The notes under the pieces were generated by a model that searched no databases, had not been told where the DNA came from, and was given only the letters and a program-made list of their open reading frames with translations. A program made the translations under genes and the position numbers. From Dysgonamonadaceae bacterium (GTDB lineage Bacteria; Bacteroidota; Bacteroidia; Bacteroidales; Azobacteroidaceae), in assembly GCA_031289145.1 (NCBI GenBank), contig JAITQA010000078.1, forward strand, positions 1 through 43,534: a DNA stretch of 43,534 nucleotides, read 5' to 3'. Below, in pieces: positions 2,639 through 23,045 of the stretch (its first letter is position 1; every line of letters starts with the position of its first letter).

Positions 2639-5149
2639 ATGATTTATCCCGAAAACTTCGAACGAAAAATAGGTTTTGATAAAATCCGGCAATTGATTAA
2701 CGCCCGTTGTTTGTCTCCGCTCGGTGAAGAAAAAGTCACCGGGATGGCTTTCTCGTCCACATTCGATTCTATCCGAAAGCAACTGTTTCAGGTGCACGAA
2801 TTTACCCGGATTCTTCGGGAAGAAGACAATTTTCCTACCGACCATTTTTTCGATGTCCGCGGCGTTTTGAAAAAAATCCGCATAGAAGGAACTTATCTGA
2901 TTGAAAAAGAACTGTTTGATATTAGGCGTTCTTTGGAAACCATTAACGAGATCGTGCGGTTTTTTACCCTCCGCTCTTCTGAAGGGGGCGATTATCCCCA
3001 TCTACAGGAATTAGTTACCGACGTAGCCTCTTTTCCCCAATTGACCCGGCAAATCGACACAATTCTCGACAAGTCCGGACGGATAAAAGACAATGCTTCC
3101 CCGGATTTGGCCGACATCCGGCTAAAATTGAATCAGACGGCGTTGGGTATTTCCAAAACCTTGCAAAGCATTTTGCGAATGGCGCAATCGGAAGGATTTG
3201 TCGATAAAGATGTGGCGCCTGCCATGCGCGACGGCCGTTTGGTCATCCCTGTTTCTCCGGCTTATAAACGCAAACTCAAGGGCATTGTTCACGATGAATC
3301 GGCTACCGGCAAAACGGTTTTTATCGAACCGGCCGAGGTCGTGGAGGCCAATAACCGCATCCGCGAACTGGAGGCGGAAGAGAAACGCGAAATCGTCCGT
3401 ATCCTCACGGATTTTACCGACCGCATCCGTCCCGACATCCCGGAAATACTGAATGCTTACCGCTTTCTCGCAGAGATTGATTTTATTCGTGCCAAAGCTT
3501 TGTTTGCCGATGATATAGAAGCTATTCTGCCGGATATTGAAGACAATCGGCAAATCGACTGGATACGGGCTATTCATCCTTTGCTGTATCTTTCGCATAA
3601 AAAACAACATAAAACGGTGGTTCCCCTTGACATAGAATTGAGAAACAAGGAAGAGGGAACAGGAAATCTGGAACAGGAAAGAAGCGGTCGGATGCTGATT
3701 ATTTCCGGGCCTAATGCCGGAGGAAAGTCCGTACTCCTTAAAACCGTGGGTTTATTGCAATACATGTTGCAATCGGGTTTGTTGATTCCGGTCGGCGAAC
3801 GTTCCAAAGCCGGGATATTCCGGGATATTTTCCTGGATATCGGGGATGAACAATCCATTGAAAATGATTTGTCGACTTACAGTTCCCACCTGACCAACAT
3901 GAAGTTTATGGTGAAAAACGCCAATCCGGAATCCCTGATTTTGATTGACGAATTTGGAAGCGGCACCGAACCACAAATCGGGGGAGCCATTGCCGAAGCC
4001 TTGCTTCGCCGGTTCAACGAAAAAGGAAGTTTTGGCGTTATTACGACGCATTATCACAACCTGAAGACGTTTGCGAAAACGCAAACGGGCGTTGTCAACG
4101 GCGCTATGCTGTACGACCGCCACCTGATGCAACCTTTATTCCGGCTGTCGATAGGCAATCCCGGCTCGTCTTTTGCTATTGAAATCGCCCGTAAAATCGG
4201 ACTGCCGGAAGATGTGATTACCGATGCTTCCGAAAAAGTCGGGCAAGACTATATCAACATGGATAAATACCTGCAGGATATCGTCCGCGACAAAAGATAC
4301 TGGGAGGCGAAGCGTCAGCAGGTGCGGCAACAGGAAAAACGGCTGGAAGAATTGGAGGAACGCTATCAGTCGGATTTGGAAAAGATTGAAAACCAACGAA
4401 AAGAATTGATATTGAAAGCCAAAGCCGACGCCGAACGCTTGCTTGCCGAAACCAATGCCCGAATCGAAAATACCATCCGGGAAATCAGAGAAGCGCAAGC
4501 GGACAAAGAGAAAACCAAGAATATCCGCAAATCTTTGGAAAAATTCAAAGAAACCGTGCAGAATAAAACGAATACCGACATCCCTGCCATTACCGGCTTG
4601 ACCCGCAATCCCAAGCATACCCTTAAGCCCAATCATCGGGGGATTACCGGTCAAGCCCGCAATGACGGAACGGATGTCCGGGAGATTCTGGTCGGCGATA
4701 CTGTCCGGATGAAAGGCCAGCGAACAGCGGGAAAAGTGATAGATAAAAAAGACAAACTTTTTGTAGTGGCCTTCGGAACCATCAAAACAACCGTCAAAGC
4801 GGAACAGATAGAAAAAGTCAGCAATAACCAAGTCAAAAAAGATACGATTACTGTCTCCGTCATATCGGCCAACAGTTCCGATTCCCTGTCGGAAAAGAAA
4901 TTGCAATTCAAAACCGAAATTGACGTCCGCGGTATGCGGGGCGAAGAAGCCTTGCAAGCCGTGACTTACTACGTTGACGACGCCATCCAATGCAATGCCG
5001 GACGGATACGTATCCTGCACGGTACCGGAACCGGCGCCCTGCGGCAAATGATTCGGGATTACCTGAAAACGGTAGCGGGAATCAAACGCTTTCAGGATGA
5101 ACATGTACAATTCGGCGGTAGCGGAATTACGGTTGTGGAATTGGAATAA
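2639..5149 (+). CDS. mutS2: Endonuclease MutS2 (MutS-like ATPase with Smr nuclease domain)
   Basis: MutS2 is a homodimeric ATPase. It lacks the mismatch-binding domains of MutS, and is linked to suppression of recombination and, in some bacteria, to rescue of collided ribosomes. The 836-residue protein has a helical clamp/core region, Walker A GPNAGGKS at residues 357-364, Walker B LILIDEFGSG (D437, E438), the STYSSHL signature, a charged coiled coil at about 520-640, and a C-terminal Smr domain from about 760 (DVRGMRGEEAL, then LHGTGTG with H794). The ATG at 2639 (MIYPENFE) matches the usual family N-terminus; an ATG at 2630 overlaps the iorB stop. Residues 649-677 are encoded by an inserted palindromic repeat, in frame, between the coiled coil and the next domain. 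A fragment of its 3' end recurs at 10046. Confidence 0.93.
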   Translation: MIYPENFERKIGFDKIRQLINARCLSPLGEEKVTGMAFSSTFDSIRKQLFQVHEFTRILREEDNFPTDHFFDVRGVLKKIRIEGTYLIEKELFDIRRSLETINEIVRFFTLRSSEGGDYPHLQELVTDVASFPQLTRQIDTILDKSGRIKDNASPDLADIRLKLNQTALGISKTLQSILRMAQSEGFVDKDVAPAMRDGRLVIPVSPAYKRKLKGIVHDESATGKTVFIEPAEVVEANNRIRELEAEEKREIVRILTDFTDRIRPDIPEILNAYRFLAEIDFIRAKALFADDIEAILPDIEDNRQIDWIRAIHPLLYLSHKKQHKTVVPLDIELRNKEEGTGNLEQERSGRMLIISGPNAGGKSVLLKTVGLLQYMLQSGLLIPVGERSKAGIFRDIFLDIGDEQSIENDLSTYSSHLTNMKFMVKNANPESLILIDEFGSGTEPQIGGAIAEALLRRFNEKGSFGVITTHYHNLKTFAKTQTGVVNGAMLYDRHLMQPLFRLSIGNPGSSFAIEIARKIGLPEDVITDASEKVGQDYINMDKYLQDIVRDKRYWEAKRQQVRQQEKRLEELEERYQSDLEKIENQRKELILKAKADAERLLAETNARIENTIREIREAQADKEKTKNIRKSLEKFKETVQNKTNTDIPAITGLTRNPKHTLKPNHRGITGQARNDGTDVREILVGDTVRMKGQRTAGKVIDKKDKLFVVAFGTIKTTVKAEQIEKVSNNQVKKDTITVSVISANSSDSLSEKKLQFKTEIDVRGMRGEEALQAVTYYVDDAIQCNAGRIRILHGTGTGALRQMIRDYLKTVAGIKRFQDEHVQFGGSGITVVELE
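4583..4668. repeat. Palindromic repeat element inserted in frame into mutS2
   Basis: Two inverted arms (4588-4612 and about 4639-4666) match at roughly 21 of 25 positions by hand alignment. The mismatches include CCG/GGT-type exchanges within the arms. The central 26 nt are not palindromic. The core arm motif GGCTTGACCCGCAAT is itself nearly palindromic. The element adds about 28 codons (AITGLTRN to GITGQARND) without breaking the frame, at a linker between the MutS2 coiled coil and the small beta domain. It resembles dispersed intergenic palindromes that have invaded a coding region, like Rickettsia palindromic elements. Confidence 0.75.
5058..5112 (+). repeat. Direct repeat copy 1 (3' end of mutS2)
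   Basis: These 55 nt within the Smr-coding end of mutS2 recur at 10046-10101 in the same orientation with about three mismatches and one inserted base. The two copies bracket the five-gene operon 5163-9868. Confidence 0.85.
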
Positions 5150-5162
5150 AGTACGTCCGCTA

Positions 5163-11745: not shown

Positions 11746-14700
11746 ATGATGATGGTACATATAAAGACAAAATTTTATTTTTTAGTATTTATCTTTTTAG
11801 GCCTTTTATCCTGCAATAAAAGTGAAACAACAGTTCCAGTTACGGAATTTGTCCCTTATATCAGCGCTTATACCGGCGGATTAATTCACACTTCATCTAC
11901 TATCCGGATAGAGTTACAGGAAGCACAAGACAAGGTGGAACTTAATACGGAAGTGAAAAAGAAACTGTTTTCATTCTCCCCTTCCATAAAAGGGAAAACT
12001 TATTGGGTGAATAATCGCACCATAGAGTTTGTCCCGGAAGAAGGTGCGTTGAAAGAAGGTAAAACATACAACGCCGAATTTAAATTGGGCAAAATAATCA
12101 AATTGGACAAACGGCTTCAAATTTTCCGCTTTTCTTTTAAAGTGGAAGAGAAAGATTTTGATATTCAAGAAGATCCCTTGGATATAGCCGACCCTGCTTC
12201 GGTTCTGGCAACGGGAATAATCCGCTTCAGCGACAGTACGCCCTTAGAATTGGTAAAAAAAGCGTTTTCTGCCCGAACAAACGACAAACAAGCCATCTCA
12301 CCGCTTGTTGAAAGTACTGCAGACCCGCGTATTTTCCGGTATTCGATTGCAGATATCCAACGGCAGAAAGCCGCTATAAATTTAGAAATTGCCATTGATG
12401 GAAATGCCTTCGGTATGAGCAAAACGGCTTCCAAAACAATTGAGATACCGGCCATAGATGTATTTAAAGTCCTTTCGGCAGAATTGATTTCCGATCCTGA
12501 AAACGGAGTGCGGATAAATTTCTCCGACCCTGTTTCTACTACACAAGATTTAAGCGGACTCATCACTATCCCCGAATTATCCGCTTTTACCACGCAAATA
12601 CAAAACAACCGGCTTATCTTGTATTTTGACCGGAAAAACATAGAAAACATCACCGTAAATGTGCATAAAGACATTAAAAATACCCTTGGCAAAAAATTGG
12701 ATGCGGATTTTTCAATCTCTTTATCACTCGAAATGCTGAAACCACAGGTAGAATTGTTACGATCCGGAAATATTATACCAAATTCAGACAATTTGACGCT
12801 TCCTTTCAAGGCGGTAAACCTCAGCGCTGTGGATTTGCGGATTATCAAGATTTACGAAAATAATATCCTGCTGTTTTTGCAGACCAACCCACTCAGCGGT
12901 TCTTCCGAACTGCGCAGAGCCGGGCGCCTGATGTACAAAAAAACCATTCAATTGGATAATCCTTCTTCCAAAAAATTGCAGGAATGGCAGAATTACGCCG
13001 TCGACCTTTCCGGTATAATGCGACAAGACCCGGGCGCCGTTTATCGCATCGAACTTTCTTTCAAACAGGCTTATTCGACCTATCCGTGCGGAGATTTCAG
13101 CGATAATACGGATAGAGAAGCGTCTGCCGATATGACCCGGATACAAGTAGATACAGGCGACGAGGAGGAGGATTACTGGGATAAGCCTTATCCTGATTAT
13201 TATAACTCAGACTATGATTGGGATTATTATGATTGGAAAGAGGAGGATAATCCCTGTCATCCAAGCTATTACATGCTGTCACAAAGAAAAGTTTCGTGCA
13301 ATGTAATGCTGTCTGATATCGGCGTTATTGCCAAAAGCAATTCCGGCAACAAATGGTGGATAGCCGTCAGCAACCTGTCGGATACGAAGCCCATAGCCAA
13401 TGCTGATATAACGGCTTACAACTACCAGTTGCAGCCCGTTGCTACAACAAAAACCGATGCGGAAGGTTTTGCCGTATTCGAATCGAAAGGGAAACCGTTT
13501 GTACTGATTGCCGCCGCCAACGGGCAAAAAACCTATCTGCGCTTAGTGGACGGGGAAGATAACTCGTTGAGCCGTTTTGATGCAGGCGGAAAAATTATCG
13601 AAAAAGGACTAAAGGGATATATTTACGGCGAACGCGGCGTATGGCGTCCGGGAGATACCCTGCATATTACTTTTGTACTGCATGATCCCGAAAAACGAAT
13701 TCCCGAAAATCATCCGGTTATTTTCGAATTATACAATGCCAGGGGACAATTTTACAGCAAGCAAATACTCACAAAAGGCGTAAACGGCTTCTATACATAT
13801 ACCGTTCCAACCCAAGCCGACGATCCGACCGGACTATGGAATGCTTATGTAAAATTAGGCGGAACATCTTTCCATAAATCGCTCCGTATCGAAACGATCA
13901 AGCCGAATCGCCTGAAAATAAACTTTTCCATACCGGGCGACCGGATTAACGCTTCTGCCGGAAATATACCGGCTACCCTGACTGCTTCATGGTTGACGGG
14001 TGCAATTGCCCACGACCTGAAAGTGAAAGTGGAAATGACGCTAACCAAAACACAGACCCAGTTTAAAGGATATGAAAAATATACTTTCAATAATCCGGCC
14101 AGCAGTTTTTCAACAAATGAATCGGAATTGTTCGATGGCACATTGAATGAAGAAGGAGTAGTAAAATTTGATTTCAAAACGATCAAAGCCGAAAATGCAC
14201 CGGGCTTATTGAATGCCAATATTGTATGCCGGGTATTCGAACAGGGAGGCGACGCCAGCATTTACACGCAAGCGATGCCTTATTCGCCTTTCAACTCGTA
14301 TGTAGGACTTAATTTGAATCAGAAAGAAGGGCAATACCTCGAAACCGACCAGGATCACCGCTTCGAGGTCGTTACCCTGAATGCAGATGGCAAACCAATC
14401 AGTCACAATAATATAGAATATAAAATATACCGTATCGGCTGGAGTTGGTGGTGGGAGACTAACAATGAATCTTTTGCCAATTATATCAATAATTCTACCT
14501 ATCAACCGGTAGCCGAGGGAAAACTGAAAACGGTAAACGGCAAAAGCCATTTCAATTTCAAGCTCAACTATCCCGGCTGGGGAAGATTTTTTATTTATGT
14601 GAAAGACAATGACAGCGGACATGCTACCGGCGGCACCGTTTATATCGACTGGCCTGAATGGCGTGGTCGTTCGGAAAAGTCAGATCCGGACAATATCAAA

Positions 14701-17316
14701 ATGTTGTCTTTTTCGACCAATAAAACTTCGTATGAAACAGGCGAAGATATTACGGTTATTATCCCTGCGGCTGCCGGAGGAACTGCTTTGGTGGCATTGG
14801 AAAACGGTTCCACCATCCTGAATCGCGCCAGAGTAAGCCTTTCCGACAAGGGCGATACGAAATATACTTTCAAAGCGACAAGCGAAATGGCGCCGAATTT
14901 TTATATCCATATCAGCTTGTTGCAACCGCACGCACAAACGATCAACGATTTGCCGATACGGATGTACGGCGTAATTCCCGTTTTTATCTCCAATAAAGAA
15001 TCCATATTGAATCCGCAGATAAATATGCCGGAAGTACTCCGTCCGGAAACAGAATTTACGGTGGAAGTCAGCGAGAAAACAGGAAAGCCGATGACCTATA
15101 CCGTAGCCATAGTAGATGATGGCCTGCTTGACCTGACTAATTTCAAAACGCCTGACCCCTGGAAAGAATTTTATGCCCGTGAAGCCCTGGGTATTCGTAC
15201 CTGGGATATGTATGACAATGTGATGGGCGCTTTCGGCGGGAAATATGCAGCGATGTTTAGCGTGGGAGGCAGCGATGAAAGTCTGAAGCCGGTTAGCAAA
15301 GCCAATCGTTTCAAACCGGTAGTGAAATATTTAGGGCCTTTTACCCTGGGCAAAGGCGCGAAAAACAAACACAAAATTACCTTACCCGTTTATGTCGGTT
15401 CGGTGCGTACCATGGTTGTGGCCGGACAAAACGGCGCTTTCGGAAAAACCGAGAAAACAACGCCTGTTCGTTCTCCGCTGATGCTATTATCGTCTTTACC
15501 GCGGGTGCTCAGCACAAATGAAGAAATCAGTCTTCCGGTAAATATTTTTGCCATGGAGAACTCGGTGAAAGATGTTACGGTGAAAGTGGAAACCACCGGT
15601 TTACTGCTGGCAAGCGGCGGAAACAGCCAATCGGTGCATTTTTCCAAGCCCGGCGACGAAATGGTTTATATCCCGATGAAAACAGGCGCGAAAACCGGTA
15701 GTGAAAAAGTTACGATTACCGCTTCCGGAGGCGGAAAAACAGCCAAAGAGACCATAGAAATTGACGTTCGCAATCCGAATACTGCTATTTTGCTATCCGA
15801 CAATCAATTGATAAATGCCGGACAAACCGGTGAGTTCAACTATCAACTTACCGGAGCATCCGATGATGATTGGGTGAAATTAGCCATTTTCCGCATCCCT
15901 TCGGTTGATTTTACCCGCCGTTTCGATTTCTTGTATAACTACAGCCATTATTGCTCCGAACAGTTGACTTCAAGGGCATTACCGCTGTTATACATTTCCC
16001 AGTTCAAAGACGTAGATGGACAAGAATCCGAAGCGATCCGTAAAAATATCCGTGAAGCAATTAAAAATCTTTACAGTCGCCAGTCACTCTCCGGCGGATT
16101 CGTTTACTGGCCGGGAGAAAGTTCTGCAAACGAGTGGATTACTACTTATGCGGGAAATTTTCTTGTATTGGCAAAAGAAAAGGGTTATGAAATAAACGAA
16201 GGCGTACTGAATAAATGGAAAAGTTACCAGCAGAAAGCGGTACGTAACTGGTCGCCTACAACTTACAGCAAAGAGGATTATTATTACTACAGCGGCGCCC
16301 ACTATCAACAGGCTTACCGGCTTTATACGCTGGCATTGGCGGGAACTCCCGAATTAGGCGCCATGAACAGGCAAAAAGAAATGAAAGACCTGCCCTTGCA
16401 AGCCCGTTGGTGTCTGGCCGCAGCTTATGCTGTCAGTGGTAAAATAAAACCGGCCGAAGAATTGATTTTCAACCAGCCGACTACCGTTGATTCCTATTAT
16501 TCCCGGTATACTTACGGCTCCTCTTCCCGCGATGAAGCGATGATTTTACAATCCTTAGTCTTAATGGGTCGTTTGGATGCTGCTTTTAAGCAAGCGCAAA
16601 AAATGGCGAAAAACCTGTCGCAAGAAATTTATTTCGATACACAGTCAACCGCTTTTTCATTAATGGCTATGGGAATTTTGGCTGAAAAAATGTCCGGAAC
16701 CATTGAGTTTGAGTGGAAATTGAATGAGAAAAAACAAGGTGACATAAAATCGGCCAAAGCCGGTTATCAATTGCAAATTCCTTCAAAACCGACAGCGGGC
16801 AAGCTCTCGTTTACCAATAAAAGCAAGGGTATGCTGTACGTAAATCTGGTATCAAAGTCGCGGCCGCTTCTTGATACTTTTCCGGCCATCGAAAACAACC
16901 TGCGTCTGGAAGTTCATTACACCGATTTGGCAGGAAAAGCGATCAAGGTATCGGAGATCAAACAGGGCGCTGACTTTATGGCTTCCATTCATGTGACGAA
17001 TCTCAATGTGCTGAGCGATTACACCGATTTGGCCTTGACGCACATCATCCCCTCCGGATGGGAAATCTTCAACGAACGGATGACCGGCGGCAACGATAAT
17101 GTTTCCGCTTCGGATACCTATACTTATCGCGATGTTCGGGACGATCGTGTCTTGACCTACTTCGACTTGTCGAGAGGAACGACCAAGACCATCAAAGTCC
17201 GGCTACAGGCCTCTTATGTAGGTTCATTTGTTTTGCCGGCCATCGCCTGCGAAGCGATGTACGATACATCGGTACAGGCAAAGACAAAAGCCGGACGGGT
17301 AACAGTGGTAAAATAG
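11746..17316 (+). CDS. Bacterial alpha-2-macroglobulin family lipoprotein with thioester motif
   Basis: An envelope protease trap or defence protein of 1856 residues. The N-terminus is a lipoprotein signal with lipobox GLLSC and lipidated C23. A series of macroglobulin-like beta domains follows, with GYIYGERGVWRPGDTLHITF and YVDD/VAIVDDGLLDLTNF as family landmarks. The thioester domain contains YCSEQLTSR with C1403-S-E-Q, the CxEQ motif that forms the reactive thioester. The C-terminal receptor-binding-like region ends in FVLPAIACEAMYD. A Tyr/Trp/Asp-rich stretch lies at about residues 473-502. Three ATG codons in a row leave the exact start open. The penicillin-binding protein PbpC that often accompanies this family is not nearby. 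Confidence 0.92.
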   Translation: MMMVHIKTKFYFLVFIFLGLLSCNKSETTVPVTEFVPYISAYTGGLIHTSSTIRIELQEAQDKVELNTEVKKKLFSFSPSIKGKTYWVNNRTIEFVPEEGALKEGKTYNAEFKLGKIIKLDKRLQIFRFSFKVEEKDFDIQEDPLDIADPASVLATGIIRFSDSTPLELVKKAFSARTNDKQAISPLVESTADPRIFRYSIADIQRQKAAINLEIAIDGNAFGMSKTASKTIEIPAIDVFKVLSAELISDPENGVRINFSDPVSTTQDLSGLITIPELSAFTTQIQNNRLILYFDRKNIENITVNVHKDIKNTLGKKLDADFSISLSLEMLKPQVELLRSGNIIPNSDNLTLPFKAVNLSAVDLRIIKIYENNILLFLQTNPLSGSSELRRAGRLMYKKTIQLDNPSSKKLQEWQNYAVDLSGIMRQDPGAVYRIELSFKQAYSTYPCGDFSDNTDREASADMTRIQVDTGDEEEDYWDKPYPDYYNSDYDWDYYDWKEEDNPCHPSYYMLSQRKVSCNVMLSDIGVIAKSNSGNKWWIAVSNLSDTKPIANADITAYNYQLQPVATTKTDAEGFAVFESKGKPFVLIAAANGQKTYLRLVDGEDNSLSRFDAGGKIIEKGLKGYIYGERGVWRPGDTLHITFVLHDPEKRIPENHPVIFELYNARGQFYSKQILTKGVNGFYTYTVPTQADDPTGLWNAYVKLGGTSFHKSLRIETIKPNRLKINFSIPGDRINASAGNIPATLTASWLTGAIAHDLKVKVEMTLTKTQTQFKGYEKYTFNNPASSFSTNESELFDGTLNEEGVVKFDFKTIKAENAPGLLNANIVCRVFEQGGDASIYTQAMPYSPFNSYVGLNLNQKEGQYLETDQDHRFEVVTLNADGKPISHNNIEYKIYRIGWSWWWETNNESFANYINNSTYQPVAEGKLKTVNGKSHFNFKLNYPGWGRFFIYVKDNDSGHATGGTVYIDWPEWRGRSEKSDPDNIKMLSFSTNKTSYETGEDITVIIPAAAGGTALVALENGSTILNRARVSLSDKGDTKYTFKATSEMAPNFYIHISLLQPHAQTINDLPIRMYGVIPVFISNKESILNPQINMPEVLRPETEFTVEVSEKTGKPMTYTVAIVDDGLLDLTNFKTPDPWKEFYAREALGIRTWDMYDNVMGAFGGKYAAMFSVGGSDESLKPVSKANRFKPVVKYLGPFTLGKGAKNKHKITLPVYVGSVRTMVVAGQNGAFGKTEKTTPVRSPLMLLSSLPRVLSTNEEISLPVNIFAMENSVKDVTVKVETTGLLLASGGNSQSVHFSKPGDEMVYIPMKTGAKTGSEKVTITASGGGKTAKETIEIDVRNPNTAILLSDNQLINAGQTGEFNYQLTGASDDDWVKLAIFRIPSVDFTRRFDFLYNYSHYCSEQLTSRALPLLYISQFKDVDGQESEAIRKNIREAIKNLYSRQSLSGGFVYWPGESSANEWITTYAGNFLVLAKEKGYEINEGVLNKWKSYQQKAVRNWSPTTYSKEDYYYYSGAHYQQAYRLYTLALAGTPELGAMNRQKEMKDLPLQARWCLAAAYAVSGKIKPAEELIFNQPTTVDSYYSRYTYGSSSRDEAMILQSLVLMGRLDAAFKQAQKMAKNLSQEIYFDTQSTAFSLMAMGILAEKMSGTIEFEWKLNEKKQGDIKSAKAGYQLQIPSKPTAGKLSFTNKSKGMLYVNLVSKSRPLLDTFPAIENNLRLEVHYTDLAGKAIKVSEIKQGADFMASIHVTNLNVLSDYTDLALTHIIPSGWEIFNERMTGGNDNVSASDTYTYRDVRDDRVLTYFDLSRGTTKTIKVRLQASYVGSFVLPAIACEAMYDTSVQAKTKAGRVTVVK

Positions 17317-18263: not shown

Positions 18264-19298
18264 CTAATTTGAATCGGAGGCCAAGCGGAAGCCCAGACCG
18301 TAGTAGCGGTAGCCCGGCGAACTGCCGACGCGATACGAAACCCGTACGCTCTGTGCACTGTTGCTCCAGCTACCACCACGAGATACGCGGGATAAGCCGG
18401 TTGAAGCGCCTGTGGGATTGGTCTGTGTATTGCTGCTATAATTGTCATAGCGGTCGCTGCACCATTCCCAAACATTGCCGCTCATATCATAAATGCCTAA
18501 TTCGTTCGGCGATTTCTGTCCTACAGGATGGGTTTGCTCGCCGCTGTTTTCGCCATACCATGCCACATTGCCTGCTGTATTGCTGCCGCTGTATTTGTAT
18601 TGGCCGGAATGCACTCCGCTCCTGCCGACATACTCCCATTCCGCTTCCGTCGGTAGCCGGTAATTCTTGCCGGTTTGCGTATTGAGGTTCCGGATAAATT
18701 CCTGTACCTCATTCCAACTTACCTGTTCTACCGGTAAGCTATCGCCCTTGAAATGAGATGGATTGTTGTCCATTATCGCTTTCCACTGCGCCTGCGTGAC
18801 TTCGTATTTGCCAATATAAAAATCGCTTAAACTCACCTGATGCGCCGGTTTTTCATCATCATCGCAGTCCTTGCCTTGCTCGGAGCCGCAACCCATGGTG
18901 AATATGCCGCCCTTGACATACACCAATTCTATGTCATTCTGATTATCCGCCACATTGACCGGCGGTTTGCTTTGTGCGATACACAAATCGTATTGTTTTT
19001 TGGCATAGCTGTCTTTGGGGTTCAGTTTCAGTATCTTGTCGTACTGTTGCGCCGCTTTTTCGTTCTCGTTTTCTTCGAAGTAAGCATCAGCTAATAAACG
19101 GGCTTTCAGGCAGATTTCCACAATCTGAACCTCTTGATCCACGTTTTTTCCCACTTGTTCGTGATAAAGTAACAGGTTGCGTTTGGCGCAATTGTAGTCG
19201 CCTGCCACTAAGCACTTGTCTGCTTCCTGCCGGTAGTCCTGGCTGTAGACCATGCTGCCGGTAAATAGTAAAACCAATAAAATTGATATTTTTCTCAT
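18264..19298 (-). CDS. Secreted TPR-FGE-sulfatase-fold (SUMF1-like, C-type lectin-like) protein A
   Basis: This exported protein of 344 residues starts at MRKISILLVLLFTGSMVYSQ, a clean signal peptide; a longer frame begins at 19340. A short TPR module (LLADAYFEENENEKAAQQYD) precedes an FGE-sulfatase domain (GGIFTMGC, FYIGKYEVTQAQWKAIM, YRLPTEAEWEY, DMSGNVWEWCSD, RGGSW, LGFRLA). The catalytic cysteines of true formylglycine-generating enzyme, which follow the GGS motif, are absent, so it is probably a ligand-binding fold and not an oxidase. Its TPR module is paralogous to that of the gene at 19381, and its FGE domain to those at 20396 and 22209. The C-terminal 37 codons correspond to the variable region discussed in the findings. 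Confidence 0.88.
   Translation of the reverse strand: MRKISILLVLLFTGSMVYSQDYRQEADKCLVAGDYNCAKRNLLLYHEQVGKNVDQEVQIVEICLKARLLADAYFEENENEKAAQQYDKILKLNPKDSYAKKQYDLCIAQSKPPVNVADNQNDIELVYVKGGIFTMGCGSEQGKDCDDDEKPAHQVSLSDFYIGKYEVTQAQWKAIMDNNPSHFKGDSLPVEQVSWNEVQEFIRNLNTQTGKNYRLPTEAEWEYVGRSGVHSGQYKYSGSNTAGNVAWYGENSGEQTHPVGQKSPNELGIYDMSGNVWEWCSDRYDNYSSNTQTNPTGASTGLSRVSRGGSWSNSAQSVRVSYRVGSSPGYRYYGLGFRLASDSN
18279..18405 (-). other. Candidate variable region of protein A
   Basis: The homologous C-terminal segment (RVSRGGSWSNSAQSVRVSYR to LGFRLA) is variable at the same codons. It also differs from B and C at several third positions (for example GTA/GTG, GGT/GGC, GCA/GCG, TTC/TTT). It may derive from another template, or may have drifted longer since the last exchange. 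Confidence 0.4.
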
Positions 19299-19320: not shown

Positions 19321-19341
19321 TTTGTGTAAAAATTACACAAA
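19321..19341. repeat. Perfect 9-bp inverted repeat between protein A and the beta-barrel gene
   Basis: TTTGTGTAA and TTACACAAA flank a 3-nt loop, 22 nt upstream of the ATG at 19298. It could be an operator for gene A or an RNA hairpin within the operon transcript. It is AT-rich and has no strong U-tract, so a terminator is less likely. Confidence 0.55.
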
Positions 19342-19380: not shown

Positions 19381-20280
19381 TTATTTCTTAAAATAAAACG
19401 AATAGCCGATACCTATGCTAATATCACCAAAACGTTGCTCATTCCCGGACAACAAAGTGTTGTAACCTAATGAAACTGAGACGCCATTGAAAACATATCT
19501 CGCTCCGGCTTCTACCTCTAATCCTTTTTGCTTATCGGGGCAAAGATAGGAAGAAGAATCGTTTATGGGATAGGAAGCGCCATAGGCGCCATACCCTGCA
19601 CCGCCATACAAAAAGGTATTGCTGAATATCCGGGCGATAACGCCAGCCGTAAAAGCCTGTCGGTAGTATTTCTTTTTATCAAAATCCACTTGTGAATAGG
19701 ACGCTGTTTCCTTGATGTCGGAAGCGAAAAGGGTAGCTGTCCGAAAGCGCAGATAGCCTCCCCATTGCTGATAATAGCCAATAGAAACGCCAATCGGCGC
19801 TGTTGGTGCAAACAAGTATTCTACCAATAGTTTTGGCTCCGATTGTTTAGCCGTATCTTCTCTCTTTTTGCCGGGTGCCGTCTGAATAGCCGAATCGGTA
19901 CTTGTTTGTGTAGCAAGCTGCGTGAGGGGGCTTGCTGCCGTCAGTTGGGCTTTACAAAAATCATGCTGTTTTTTGGCATAAGCGTCACTCGAATTCAGTT
20001 CTATGAGTACCTCATACTGTTTTGCGGCTTTTTCATAGTCTCCCTCCTCAAAATAGCCGTCTGCCAACAGGAGCGTTTTTCGGCATTTCTCGGCACGTTT
20101 AATTTCCTTGGAAATGTCCTTAGTCCCATGTAATGTATAACGATTGTAATGCTGTATTGCACATTCGTAATCGCCTTTTGTATAACAGTCGTTACCGGCG
20201 TGTAAAAGTACTTCCGGCGCCTGAGCGTTAGCGCTCAGGCAGCCGAGAAACAATGCGATTATTAAAACTGTTTTCTTCAT
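19381..20280 (-). CDS. TPR module fused to an outer-membrane beta-barrel
   Basis: The 299-residue protein begins with the signal peptide MKKTVLIIALFLGCLSANAQ. A TPR-like module (CYTKGDYECAIQHYNRY, LLLADGYFEEGDYEKAAKQY) closely resembles the module in the gene at 18264. After a Thr/Ser/Lys linker at about 120-150, a C-terminal domain with alternating aromatic strands (VSIGYYQQWGGYLRF, ARYVFNGVSVSLGYN) ends in IGIGYSFYFKK, as in small porin-like outer-membrane barrels. It lies between the kinase gene and gene A. It could anchor or display the neighbouring receptor proteins, which is inference. Confidence 0.75.
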   Translation of the reverse strand: MKKTVLIIALFLGCLSANAQAPEVLLHAGNDCYTKGDYECAIQHYNRYTLHGTKDISKEIKRAEKCRKTLLLADGYFEEGDYEKAAKQYEVLIELNSSDAYAKKQHDFCKAQLTAASPLTQLATQTSTDSAIQTAPGKKREDTAKQSEPKLLVEYLFAPTAPIGVSIGYYQQWGGYLRFRTATLFASDIKETASYSQVDFDKKKYYRQAFTAGVIARIFSNTFLYGGAGYGAYGASYPINDSSSYLCPDKQKGLEVEAGARYVFNGVSVSLGYNTLLSGNEQRFGDISIGIGYSFYFKK

Positions 20281-20331: not shown

Positions 20332-20377
20332 GTTCCGCATTTCGCTCGGTCGTCCCTCCCTTCGCTTTTTGCGGAAC
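20332..20377. repeat. Inverted repeat just downstream of the kinase-FGE gene
   Basis: GTTCCGCA at 20332-20339 and TGCGGAAC at 20370-20377 form perfect 8-bp arms around a GC-rich 30-nt loop that contains two TTCGCT copies. It starts 19 nt beyond the stop codon of the kinase gene. It could be a dispersed palindrome, a processing site, or the hairpin that lies beyond variable regions in some DGR targets. Confidence 0.6.
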
Positions 20378-20395: not shown

Positions 20396-22168
20396 CTAAT
20401 TTGAACTGGAGGCCAAGCGAAAGCCCAAATCGATGCTGCGAACGTCGGGTGTGTCGCTGTAGCGACTCGGAACTCGAACGCTCTGCGCATTGTCGTACCA
20501 GCTACCGCCACGAAACACGCGGTAAGAGCCTGATGAAGCGCCTGTAGGATTGGTCTGTGTATTGCTGTTATAATTACCATACCAGTCGCTGCACCTTTCA
20601 TAAACATTCCCGCTCATATCATAAATGCCCAACTCGTTGGCTGCCTTCGTTCCGACAGGGTGGGTTTGGCCATTGTAGTTGCCATACCACGCTACCCTGT
20701 CGGGAGAAGAACTGCCGCTGTACTTGGCGCCCGTGCTTTCCTTGCCCCCGCGGGCGGCATATTCCCATTCCGCTTCGGTCGGCAAACGATAATGCTTGCC
20801 GGTTTGGGTATTGAGTTTCTTTATAAATGCCTGTACATCGTTCCAGCTTACCTGTTCTACCGGCAAATTGTCCTCTTTGAAATAGCTCGGATTGCTGTCC
20901 ATGACCGCTTTCCATTGCGCTTGCGTGACTTCGTATTTGCCTATGTAAAAATCGCTTAGCGTAACCAGATGCGCCGGTTTTTCATCACCATCGCAGTCGT
21001 TGCCCTGCTCGGCGGTGCAACCCATGGTGAATGTGCCGCCCTCCACGAAGACCATGTCGATAGCTGCAACTTCTGCTACTGCTTGTTCCGGTTCCGTTAC
21101 TTCTGGTATTTGCTTATCAAGCAAAGGATTATTTCCAAGATAGAACAAAAAGAAGAACAATAAGACAATAGCAATTCCGTATAAGACATACCATTGCTTC
21201 AGGTTTTTTCGCTTCGGAGAATTTGCGTTTGGCAAGGGAGGGACAGGGGCGGGTTCAACTTTTGTTTGTTTTTTCGGCGCTAACTTTGTTGTTTCGTCCG
21301 GTTTGGCTTGGGTTTCCCCTTGCAGGATTGCGGTAGCTTCTTTGCAATTCTTTACCCGTTGCGCTACCTCTTTCAGCAGACATTGCTGAATCAGGGTTTG
21401 CCAAGGCTTGGGGATGTCATTAATTGTATCCGGAAATTTTCCGCTGTTGATTTGACTGAACAGTTCTTGCCGTCCCGATTCACTTGTCGTGGCATGTCCA
21501 CCTGTGGAGAAAGGCAATTGTCCGGTCAATACCTGAAAGGCAATGACCCCGAAACTCCACAAATCAGTATTTTTGCGTATTTCCAGGTCGCCCAATTGTT
21601 CGGGAGAGGAATACGAAAGTGTCCCGGCGCCTGCCAGGGAGTTGTTGAAAACAGAACTTTTGTTTATTTCCAGTTTCTTGCTGATGCCAAAGTCGGTGAT
21701 TTTGGGGACAAACGTCCCCTCTTTCCGCTTGACAATCAGTATGTTTTGTGGTTTCAGGTCGCGGTGGATAATGCCGTTGTCGTGCAGAAAAGCCAAACCG
21801 GAAAGGATCTGTTTCAGCAAGGATTCTTTTTGTGCCAAAGAAAGTTTTTCATTTTGAATCAATTGCAACAAGTTGCCTTCTTCGTAGTACTGCAAAATGC
21901 CGAAATCGTATTCGCCGTCGAAAGAAGAGAATGTGTAACATTCCTCATAGCGGGCAATATTGGGGTGAACCGGCAACCGGCTGACCATTTCCACTTCTTT
22001 CCGTAGTCGTACAGATTCATATTGCGGATTGACCGAAGCTATTTTGATAGCTACCCAACGATCCAAATAGGTGTCGTAGGCCTTGAATACTTTGCCGAAA
22101 CCGCCCTCGCCGAGTTTGTCGGTAGCAGGGTCGTACAGGTAACGGGTTTTAAATTCTTCGTGTGTCAT
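20396..22168 (-). CDS. Ser/Thr protein kinase with transmembrane segment and C-terminal FGE-sulfatase-fold sensor (protein B)
   Basis: A 590-residue receptor-like kinase. The N-terminal catalytic domain has GEGGFGKV (residues 20-27), the lysine K42 of VAIKIA, catalytic loop HRDLKPQN (H135-D137), DFG (D159) and GTLSYSSPEQ. A Lys/Pro-rich linker is followed by one transmembrane helix (LYGIAIVLLFFFLFYLG, about 328-346). An FGE-sulfatase fold from about 374 (FVEGGTFTMGC) is then predicted to be periplasmic. All kinase residues needed for activity seem present. The FGE domain lacks the redox cysteines of SUMF1. The last 37 codons are nearly identical in frame to those of gene 22209 at constant positions but vary at 13 codons. 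It starts 40 nt after that gene. Confidence 0.92.
   Translation of the reverse strand: MTHEEFKTRYLYDPATDKLGEGGFGKVFKAYDTYLDRWVAIKIASVNPQYESVRLRKEVEMVSRLPVHPNIARYEECYTFSSFDGEYDFGILQYYEEGNLLQLIQNEKLSLAQKESLLKQILSGLAFLHDNGIIHRDLKPQNILIVKRKEGTFVPKITDFGISKKLEINKSSVFNNSLAGAGTLSYSSPEQLGDLEIRKNTDLWSFGVIAFQVLTGQLPFSTGGHATTSESGRQELFSQINSGKFPDTINDIPKPWQTLIQQCLLKEVAQRVKNCKEATAILQGETQAKPDETTKLAPKKQTKVEPAPVPPLPNANSPKRKNLKQWYVLYGIAIVLLFFFLFYLGNNPLLDKQIPEVTEPEQAVAEVAAIDMVFVEGGTFTMGCTAEQGNDCDGDEKPAHLVTLSDFYIGKYEVTQAQWKAVMDSNPSYFKEDNLPVEQVSWNDVQAFIKKLNTQTGKHYRLPTEAEWEYAARGGKESTGAKYSGSSSPDRVAWYGNYNGQTHPVGTKAANELGIYDMSGNVYERCSDWYGNYNSNTQTNPTGASSGSYRVFRGGSWYDNAQSVRVPSRYSDTPDVRSIDLGFRLASSSN
20410..20540 (-). other. 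Candidate DGR-type variable region of protein B
   Basis: This C-terminal coding segment encodes RVFRGGSW, then a stretch of variable residues interspersed with AQ, VRVP, TP and LGFRLA. Against gene 22209, 20 of 23 conserved codons are identical in nucleotide sequence; only 7 of 17 are identical just upstream. Changes in variable codons fall mainly at first and second positions. This is the signature of template-directed adenine mutagenesis. Confidence 0.55.
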
Positions 22169-22208
22169 AATTTATGTTTTATCAATCTTGTAAAAATCCC
22201 GGTTCAGA

Positions 22209-23045
22209 CTATTTTGAACTACAGGCCAGGCGAAAGCCCAAAAAGTTGTGCTGAACGCCGGGCGTGTCACCGCCGCGATCCGGAACTCGCACGTCCTGCG
22301 CGTCGCCGAACCAGCTACCGCCACGAAGCACGCGGAAAGAGCCGGAAGAAGCGCCCGTGGGATTATTTGTTCCGGATGGATAAGCGCCATACCAATCACT
22401 GCACCATTCCTGTACATTACCACTCATGTCGTAGATACCCAACTCGTTCGGCGATTTTTGTCCTGCCGGATGAGATGTATCTCCACTGTTATAGCGATAC
22501 CAGGCTACTTCGTCAATACTGTTGCTGCCACTATAGGTATAGTTATACGTCTGTTGTCCGCCTTTGGCTGCATACTCCCATTCTGCTTCGGTCGGTAAAC
22601 GGAATTGTTTGCCGCCACCTACGAATTGACTCAATTTGTAAGAAAAACCATTTGTGTAATAAGCAATACCGTTTATCGTATATCCTATGCTACCCGATGT
22701 GCCAACAATATCATCCCAGCTCACATAATATACAGGATAACTTGCCCCTTTACCATAAGTCGTACTTGGCGCATTTCCGGGATAACTTGTTCCCATCACA
22801 GCCTCCCATAAACCTTGCGTTACTTCGTACTTGCCGATGGTAAATGAATTAAGCGTAACAGTGACGTCATTGAGTACAGTTGTCCCGCCCGGTACTGCAA
22901 GCATATCGAACGATACGCCATTAGCGGTATAAGATACTTTTGGAAGTTCATCTAACCGTTTTCTTATTTCGTCATTCGATAGTTCAGGATAATTGCAACC
23001 AAAAATAAAACCGAGTATTACCGGTAAATAGAAATTTTTCTTCAT
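22209..23045 (-). CDS. FGE-sulfatase-fold lipoprotein (protein C)
   Basis: An exported 278-residue protein. MKKNFYLPVILGFIFGC is a lipoprotein signal with Cys17 as the modified residue. I chose 23045 because an upstream extension to 23183 would bury the signal. The FGE domain starts directly after (SFDMLAVPGGTTVLNDVTVT) and includes FTIGKYEVTQGLWEAVMG, FRLPTEAEWEYAAKGG, LGIYDMSGNVQEWCSDW and RVLRGGSW. It has an insertion with SIGYTINGIAYYTNGFSYKL compared with A and B. No catalytic cysteine pair is present. It is the first gene of the four-gene operon. Its C-terminal segment is the second candidate variable region. Confidence 0.88.
   Translation of the reverse strand: MKKNFYLPVILGFIFGCNYPELSNDEIRKRLDELPKVSYTANGVSFDMLAVPGGTTVLNDVTVTLNSFTIGKYEVTQGLWEAVMGTSYPGNAPSTTYGKGASYPVYYVSWDDIVGTSGSIGYTINGIAYYTNGFSYKLSQFVGGGKQFRLPTEAEWEYAAKGGQQTYNYTYSGSNSIDEVAWYRYNSGDTSHPAGQKSPNELGIYDMSGNVQEWCSDWYGAYPSGTNNPTGASSGSFRVLRGGSWFGDAQDVRVPDRGGDTPGVQHNFLGFRLACSSK
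22222..22350 (-). other. Candidate DGR-type variable region of protein C
   Basis: This segment encodes RVLRGGSWFGDAQDVRVPDR and on to LGFRLA at the C-terminus, in the same place as in protein B. Ten of the 13 residue-changing codons relative to B keep the same third base while bases 1 and 2 differ, as AAC or AAT template codons would produce. Confidence 0.55.

Follow-up and report, generated by a model that had tools for sequence, protein, structure and literature searches.

FGE-domain variable regions with a DGR-type mutation signature in a Dysgonamonadaceae genome, one of them in a putative transmembrane Ser/Thr kinase

Introduction

In DGRs, a reverse transcriptase (RT) randomises the adenines of a template repeat (TR), and the resulting cDNA is inserted at the 3' terminus of the target gene, where the variable region (VR) lies. 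The DGR of Treponema denticola, in the sections of PMC4891356 that describe its layout, resembles the system considered here in having FGE/CLec targets, targets remote from the cassette, and an HRDC accessory; the word 'kinase' does not occur in the main text of that paper. Another close parallel is provided by cyanobacterial STK-CLec proteins, which, in the passages of PMC7517822 that deal with them, join a Ser/Thr kinase to a DGR-varied CLec domain at the C-terminus, like protein B described below, and are often encoded remote from the cassette. An autoinhibition model has been proposed for these kinase–CLec proteins, and most of them are predicted to be cytosolic, with some transmembrane or secreted (same passages), whereas the hydrophobic stretch of B would place its varied domain on the outer side. 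Their hosts appear to belong to a phylum different from that of the host studied here. The DGRs of Thiohalocapsa PB-PSB1, as far as the account of these loci in PMC10907252 goes, likewise have several targets with CLec/FGE domains, have target annotations that include a protein kinase domain, and comprise both complete and degenerate loci. In contrast to the cluster described here, in which no such domain was among the Pfam matches, they carry NTPase conflict domains.

Kinase–CLec DGR targets (in cyanobacteria) and multi-target HRDC DGRs (in Treponema denticola) are already published. What is distinctive in the present case is the presence of three VR genes in one cluster, an inverted-repeat motif that follows some VRs across species, and the separation of the targets from a cassette that is either absent or unassembled; in addition, the kinase seems to carry its variable tip outside the membrane. 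No title describing this cluster was among the literature matches listed, a scope outside which subscription papers largely fall.

A Four-Gene Cluster Encodes Three FGE-Domain Proteins

The window, i.e., the whole stretch of 43,534 nucleotides that was analysed, lies on contig C59 of a Dysgonamonadaceae assembly of 3.94 Mb in 169 contigs, which is 96% complete. On its minus strand it carries a cluster of four genes, which are, in reading order, C, B, a gene for a TPR/outer-membrane barrel protein, and A. The features of the cluster are as follows:

22209..23045, minus strand: gene C, FGE-domain protein of 278 aa (PF03781, E 6.8e-40)
22224..22334, minus strand: VR of C, 37 codons, RV..LGFRLA (VR alignment)
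20396..22168, minus strand: gene B, Ser/Thr kinase with a hydrophobic putative transmembrane stretch and a C-terminal FGE domain, 590 aa
21350..22120, minus strand: kinase domain of B (PF00069)
21137..21193, minus strand: single hydrophobic stretch of B, residues 326–344, putative transmembrane helix (by eye)
20411..20521, minus strand: VR of B (VR alignment)
20332..20377, minus strand: inverted repeat directly 3' of B (outer stem positions obtained by counting along the sequence)
20347–20365, minus strand: core of the inverted repeat 3' of B, GCGAAGNGNGGGACGNNCG (sequence search)
19381..20280, minus strand: protein with TPR and an outer-membrane beta-barrel, encoded between B and A (PF13505, E 2.2e-7)
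18264..19298, minus strand: gene A, C-terminal FGE domain and a sub-threshold TPR match (Pfam)
18279..18389, minus strand: VR of A (VR alignment)

All three proteins, A, B and C, have a C-terminal FGE-sulfatase domain (PF03781). In B, this domain (residues 371–586) is preceded by a Hanks-type kinase domain (PF00069, residues 17–273), in which the VAIK, HRDLKPQN and DFG motifs are present. With the hydrophobic stretch between the two, the FGE domain of B seems to lie outside the cytoplasm and the kinase inside. The N-terminus of A is signal-like by eye (the ORF was listed from a TTG at 19340, and the first ATG is at 19298), and that of C resembles a lipoprotein signal. A and C appear to be secreted or lipoprotein partners, encoded in the same cluster as B. 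We infer that the cluster could be an operon and that it could serve ligand sensing. The PADLOC matches of B (MAD6 and PD-T4-6) were read as general kinase similarity. Beyond A, on the opposite strand, the window encodes an alpha-2-macroglobulin-like bacterial protein of 1856 aa (11746–17316), and a phage-type integrase gene is located near the contig end (41787–43031).

Six Genes of the Genome Share a Scrambled C-Terminal Segment

PF03781 matched at 13 places in the assembly. The ending of A, B and C is common to three more FGE genes, one on contig C138 and two on C168, and the FGE genes on C43, C45, C101 and C159 were more distant from these six. The scrambled segment that had been pointed out in an earlier note on this DNA is real and extends to genes outside the cluster. 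It comprises about 37 codons, which could be aligned across all six genes, and in each of them the reading frame of the VR is intact. The analyses of VRs described below concern these six genes; a third C168 gene, a second C45 stretch and a short C18 stretch fall outside the set.

In formylglycine-generating enzyme, the active-site cysteines are contained in the segment that follows RGGS. None of the 37 VR codons of A, B or C encodes a cysteine, and the active-site cysteines of an FGE are thus absent from the three segments. Of the PDB entries, the one that the B domain matched best by sequence was 2y3c, T. denticola variable protein 1 (E 5.5e-36), which we take to be TvpA, a solved DGR target, and the second-best was an FGE (E 2.3e-24). 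Judged by sequence, this is a CLec/FGE-family domain with a C-terminal VR, as in DGR targets.

The Codon Pattern of the Segment Differs from That of the Upstream Domain

Among the codons for the same residue in B and C (Trp and Met left out), 20/23 are identical within the segment, exactly as the earlier note had claimed, and its count of changed codons that keep the third base (10/13) was reproduced as well. For the NELGIYDMSGNV stretch, our recount gave 6/15 identical codons (Met and Trp left out) instead of the claimed 7/17, and in the whole domain upstream of the VR the value was 45/87. The contrast in same-residue identity stands for B and C, but does not hold in general: in all 15 pairs of the six genes, 226/317 codons (71%) were identical inside the VR and 1062/1646 (65%) upstream, and the contrast was clear mainly in pairs containing the divergent gene C.

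The retention of the third base does generalise. In the 15 pairs, it was observed in 176 of the 223 changed codons inside the VR (79%) and in 289 of the 748 upstream (39%), and the best of 191 upstream windows reached only 0.52, as compared to 0.79 in the VR. At columns with at least three residues, codons ended in C/T in 87/101 cases inside and in 121/226 cases upstream. However, such endings at variable columns were also found in the distant FGE genes on C43 (12/14), C101 (14/17) and, less often, C45 (12/17), and, since C43 and C101 are also rich in them, a C/T ending alone is not discriminating.

Congeners Carry Template Repeats of the Matching Type

When the VR of C was used as a query over the genus (38 genomes, including the one studied here), 10 genomes had a match. 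In one congener (G004, contig C133), a 308-aa FGE target, a 154-aa HRDC protein (PF00570) and a 404-aa RT ORF are encoded consecutively on the same strand. The TR, which reads VNRGGRWNNDAQNVRVPNRNNNTPDNRNSNIGFRLAS, lies within the last part of the RT ORF. Overlaps between a TR and one end of an RT ORF are already known, as stated in the passage of PMC3521204 on such cases. Over 36 codons, the VR of G004 differs from the TR at 15 of 31 adenines and at none of 77 other bases. Over 136 bases, the differences amount to 20 at adenines and four at other bases, and the latter four are all located beyond the VR core, in the 3' tail. The same was seen in a second congener (G005, contig C134), in which the VR differs from the TR at 14/29 adenines and 0/94 other bases. 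A third cassette (G033, contig C20) shows only the HRDC gene, the TR and the RT. The gene orders, target-HRDC-TR-RT in G005, HRDC-TR-RT in G033, and with the TR inside the RT ORF in G004, differ from that in T. denticola, where, in the layout given in PMC4891356, the HRDC gene lies between the TR and the RT. Adjoining the G004 target are a kinase gene and a Lcl_C-domain gene with YYWSST (2838–4547 and 4588–5160 of that locus).

The Six Variable Regions Differ from a Congener's Template Mainly at Adenines

Compared with the G004 TR, the six VRs of the genome studied here differ at 113 of 184 adenines and at 65 of 461 other bases; for the individual VRs, the one-sided Fisher p values range from 7e-4 to 1e-9. 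Hence, with a congener's template, the differences fall mainly at template adenines, as in DGR targets. As a control, the six gene bodies were compared with the body of the G004 target; they differ from it at 28–38% of A and at 26–42% of the positions elsewhere, with no adenine bias. As the adenine bias is present in the VRs and absent from the gene bodies, the six segments are DGR variable regions. The template with AAC/AAT codons that had been postulated, and the check by differences at adenines proposed along with it, were in this way borne out through the templates of congeners, and both the FGE identity of the domain (PF03781) and the mutation pattern (adenine bias) were confirmed.

Among the six VRs themselves, variation was found in 28/31 columns that have A in the TR and in 28/80 other columns. 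At least three different bases occur in 19 A columns and in five others, and two of the latter correspond to the third base of Val and Arg codons, in which the genome's own template may carry A. Of the 65 codons at template AAY positions, 64 end in C/T and 55 retain the third base of the template. They encode only S, Y, N, G, F, D, V, L, I and H, and none of the 65 is a codon for K, E, Q, M or W, or a stop. The non-adenine differences among the six VRs (28/80 columns) indicate that not all of them were freshly copied from one template, and, with 65/461 non-adenine differences, the comparison with a foreign template demonstrates neither current activity nor one shared template.

A Proposed Model of Diversification in Trans

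We consider it very probable that the VRs of A, B, C and of the three genes on C138 and C168 were written by an HRDC-accessory-type DGR of this genus. The mutation signature, the protein family and the pairing of template and VR in two congeners support this. The RT of such a DGR would copy template RNA with AAY codons, placing random bases opposite adenines, and the cDNA would, by retrohoming in trans, take the place of the corresponding 3' end in every FGE/CLec-fold target. The fold would be maintained by the constant codons (RGGSW, VRV, GFRLA), while about 11–14 AAY-type codons would vary the binding surface. In B, given the putative membrane topology, the varied surface would be exposed outside the cytoplasm and feed the Hanks-type kinase inside, and binding by this face might change the kinase output.

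The fuller picture, of a chromosomal DGR of this genus that acts in trans over dispersed receptors including a transmembrane Ser/Thr kinase, with its hypervariable tip beyond the inner membrane and the randomised surface wired directly to phosphorylation and with a cross-species inverted-repeat core 3' of some targets, is possible, but we propose it only tentatively. If the cassette is live, the bacterium would keep redrawing the sensing face of a signalling kinase, and the question of how ligand is linked to kinase in DGR-varied kinases could be tested with an extracytoplasmic sensor. Additionally, with a congener's template, DGR targets can be identified and assigned to an RT clade even where the assembly contains neither template nor RT.

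The Cognate Cassette in the Assembly: Lost or in a Gap

The check for a template and a cognate RT in the genome itself, which the earlier note had proposed, revealed neither in the 96%-complete assembly. A DNA search with the VR of B gave 11 places, 8 of them in FGE genes and none a template; the three short matches (14–17 bases, on C165, C18 and C27) were rejected, as a script found no RGG..GFR frame in them. A search of the assembly for a TR-like pattern found none. The G004 RT ORF including its TR, used as a query, detected an RT fragment on contig C106, the FGE targets and C129 (E 0.2, very weak), and a full-length RT of the congener G006 detected the C106 fragment only. With an HRDC query, only three open frames of 551–743 aa and no stand-alone HRDC gene were found in the assembly, and the query touches a long ORF beside the C106 RT. 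An Avd query of the assembly gave nothing at E 1, and by eye neither an accessory nor a template was seen in the terminal part of C168 that follows the VR gene there. Altogether, the assembly yielded no whole cassette of cognate RT, TR and HRDC/Avd; as it is incomplete and consists of 169 contigs, this empty search does not tell the loss of a cassette from a gap.

Within the DGR reading, it may be that the HRDC cassette has been lost and that the six genes are frozen, drifting former targets, to which we give somewhat less than an even chance. The failure to find the cassette and the non-adenine differences among the six VRs speak for this, and so does the retention of target genes by T. denticola isolates without RT and TR, as reported in the part of PMC4891356 on isolates. 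However, G005 has a cassette, and yet five of its other FGE endings show differences from the TR at 9–28 of 94 non-adenine sites, with gaps, so that drift is not a sign of loss. Moreover, the number of contigs leaves room for an assembly gap, and the intact VR frames of the six genes do not fit well with a loss.

The C106 RT Fragment Falls into a Different DGR Group

The only RVT_1 match in the assembly was the fragment of 251 aa on C106 (3–758), which is cut by the contig start, its 5' part being missing beyond it together with any upstream template. The best PDB match of this fragment, as of the G004 RT, was 8ub7, named Reverse transcriptase, presumably that of a Bordetella phage DGR. That this RT diversifies the A, B and C targets would be in keeping with its being the sole match and with its missing end, which could hold a template, but on the basis of template types and of a tree we regard it as improbable. 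In the tree of 19 RTs, the C106 fragment grouped with two G006 RTs (100/97), whereas three RTs with FGE templates formed a separate clade (98/96). The C106 group includes 16 RT loci from other genomes (12 placed by the tree and 4 by identity only), 13 of which had an Avd match and 14 an N-rich YWSS-like template candidate; no FGE-type template was present in the stretches examined around these 16 RTs. Of 23 RT loci, three had a template or VR of FGE type, and these are the same three that have a stand-alone HRDC gene; FGE templates thus go with the HRDC clade (3/3). Taken together, the RT of C106 is probably not the partner of the A, B and C targets. Of the RT and accessory for which the earlier note had proposed to search, a DGR RT fragment exists, but in the wrong clade, and the accessory of the FGE-template cassettes of congeners is HRDC, and not Avd as anticipated.

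As such, the C106 RT is a 5'-truncated, DGR-type enzyme of the Avd/YWSS clade, whose own template and targets were not seen in the assembly; Fib_succ_major targets for it were absent from the genome at E 0.001 or better. Matches to this RT numbered five in G006 and four in G010, suggesting several DGRs per genome in both. RTs of a third group (G033:C58, G002:C374 and G026:C9) have IGNYLSQ and YADD motifs and N-rich segments nearby (GNANNSANAG and the like), with neither HRDC nor Avd matches. The group represents another type of DGR within the genus.

Explanations without a Retroelement

Gene conversion between paralogs, combined with diversifying selection, could account for the VR of C being nearer to the other genes than the body of C is. 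It would not, however, single out template adenines while sparing the neighbouring bases, and is most unlikely. Ordinary divergence of FGE paralogs, with selection on a binding loop, could appeal to the RGGS..GFR landmarks, which are common to FGE proteins generally (PDB-match alignments), and to the C/T-rich variable columns of C43 and C101, but it is scarcely credible against an adenine bias confined to the VR, the excess of third-base retention and the existence of templates in congeners.

Sequence Elements 3' of the Variable Regions

The inverted repeat that follows B contains GCGAAGGGAGGGACGACCG, thirty bases 3' of the B stop. The core of this repeat is common to the VR ends of B, the C138 gene and the cassette-linked target of G005, and occurs with one mismatch at that of G004; in about 633 kb of non-redundant sequence, these four sites, all after VR stops, were the only ones with at most one mismatch. 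At two mismatches, four more sites were found, none of them at a VR end. As the searched sequence was enriched in VR loci, the specificity of the core is suggestive only. Neither A nor C nor the C168 genes are followed by this core. In a Bordetella phage, efficient homing depends on hairpins located behind the VR, according to the part of PMC3240598 that concerns them; no match to the 4-base GRNA loop given there was established in the inverted repeat of B and C138. C and both C168 genes have a different shared post-stop sequence, TCTGAACC.GGATTTTTACAAGATTGA (for C, window 22140–22208), which might represent either another type of 3' element or an intergenic repeat.
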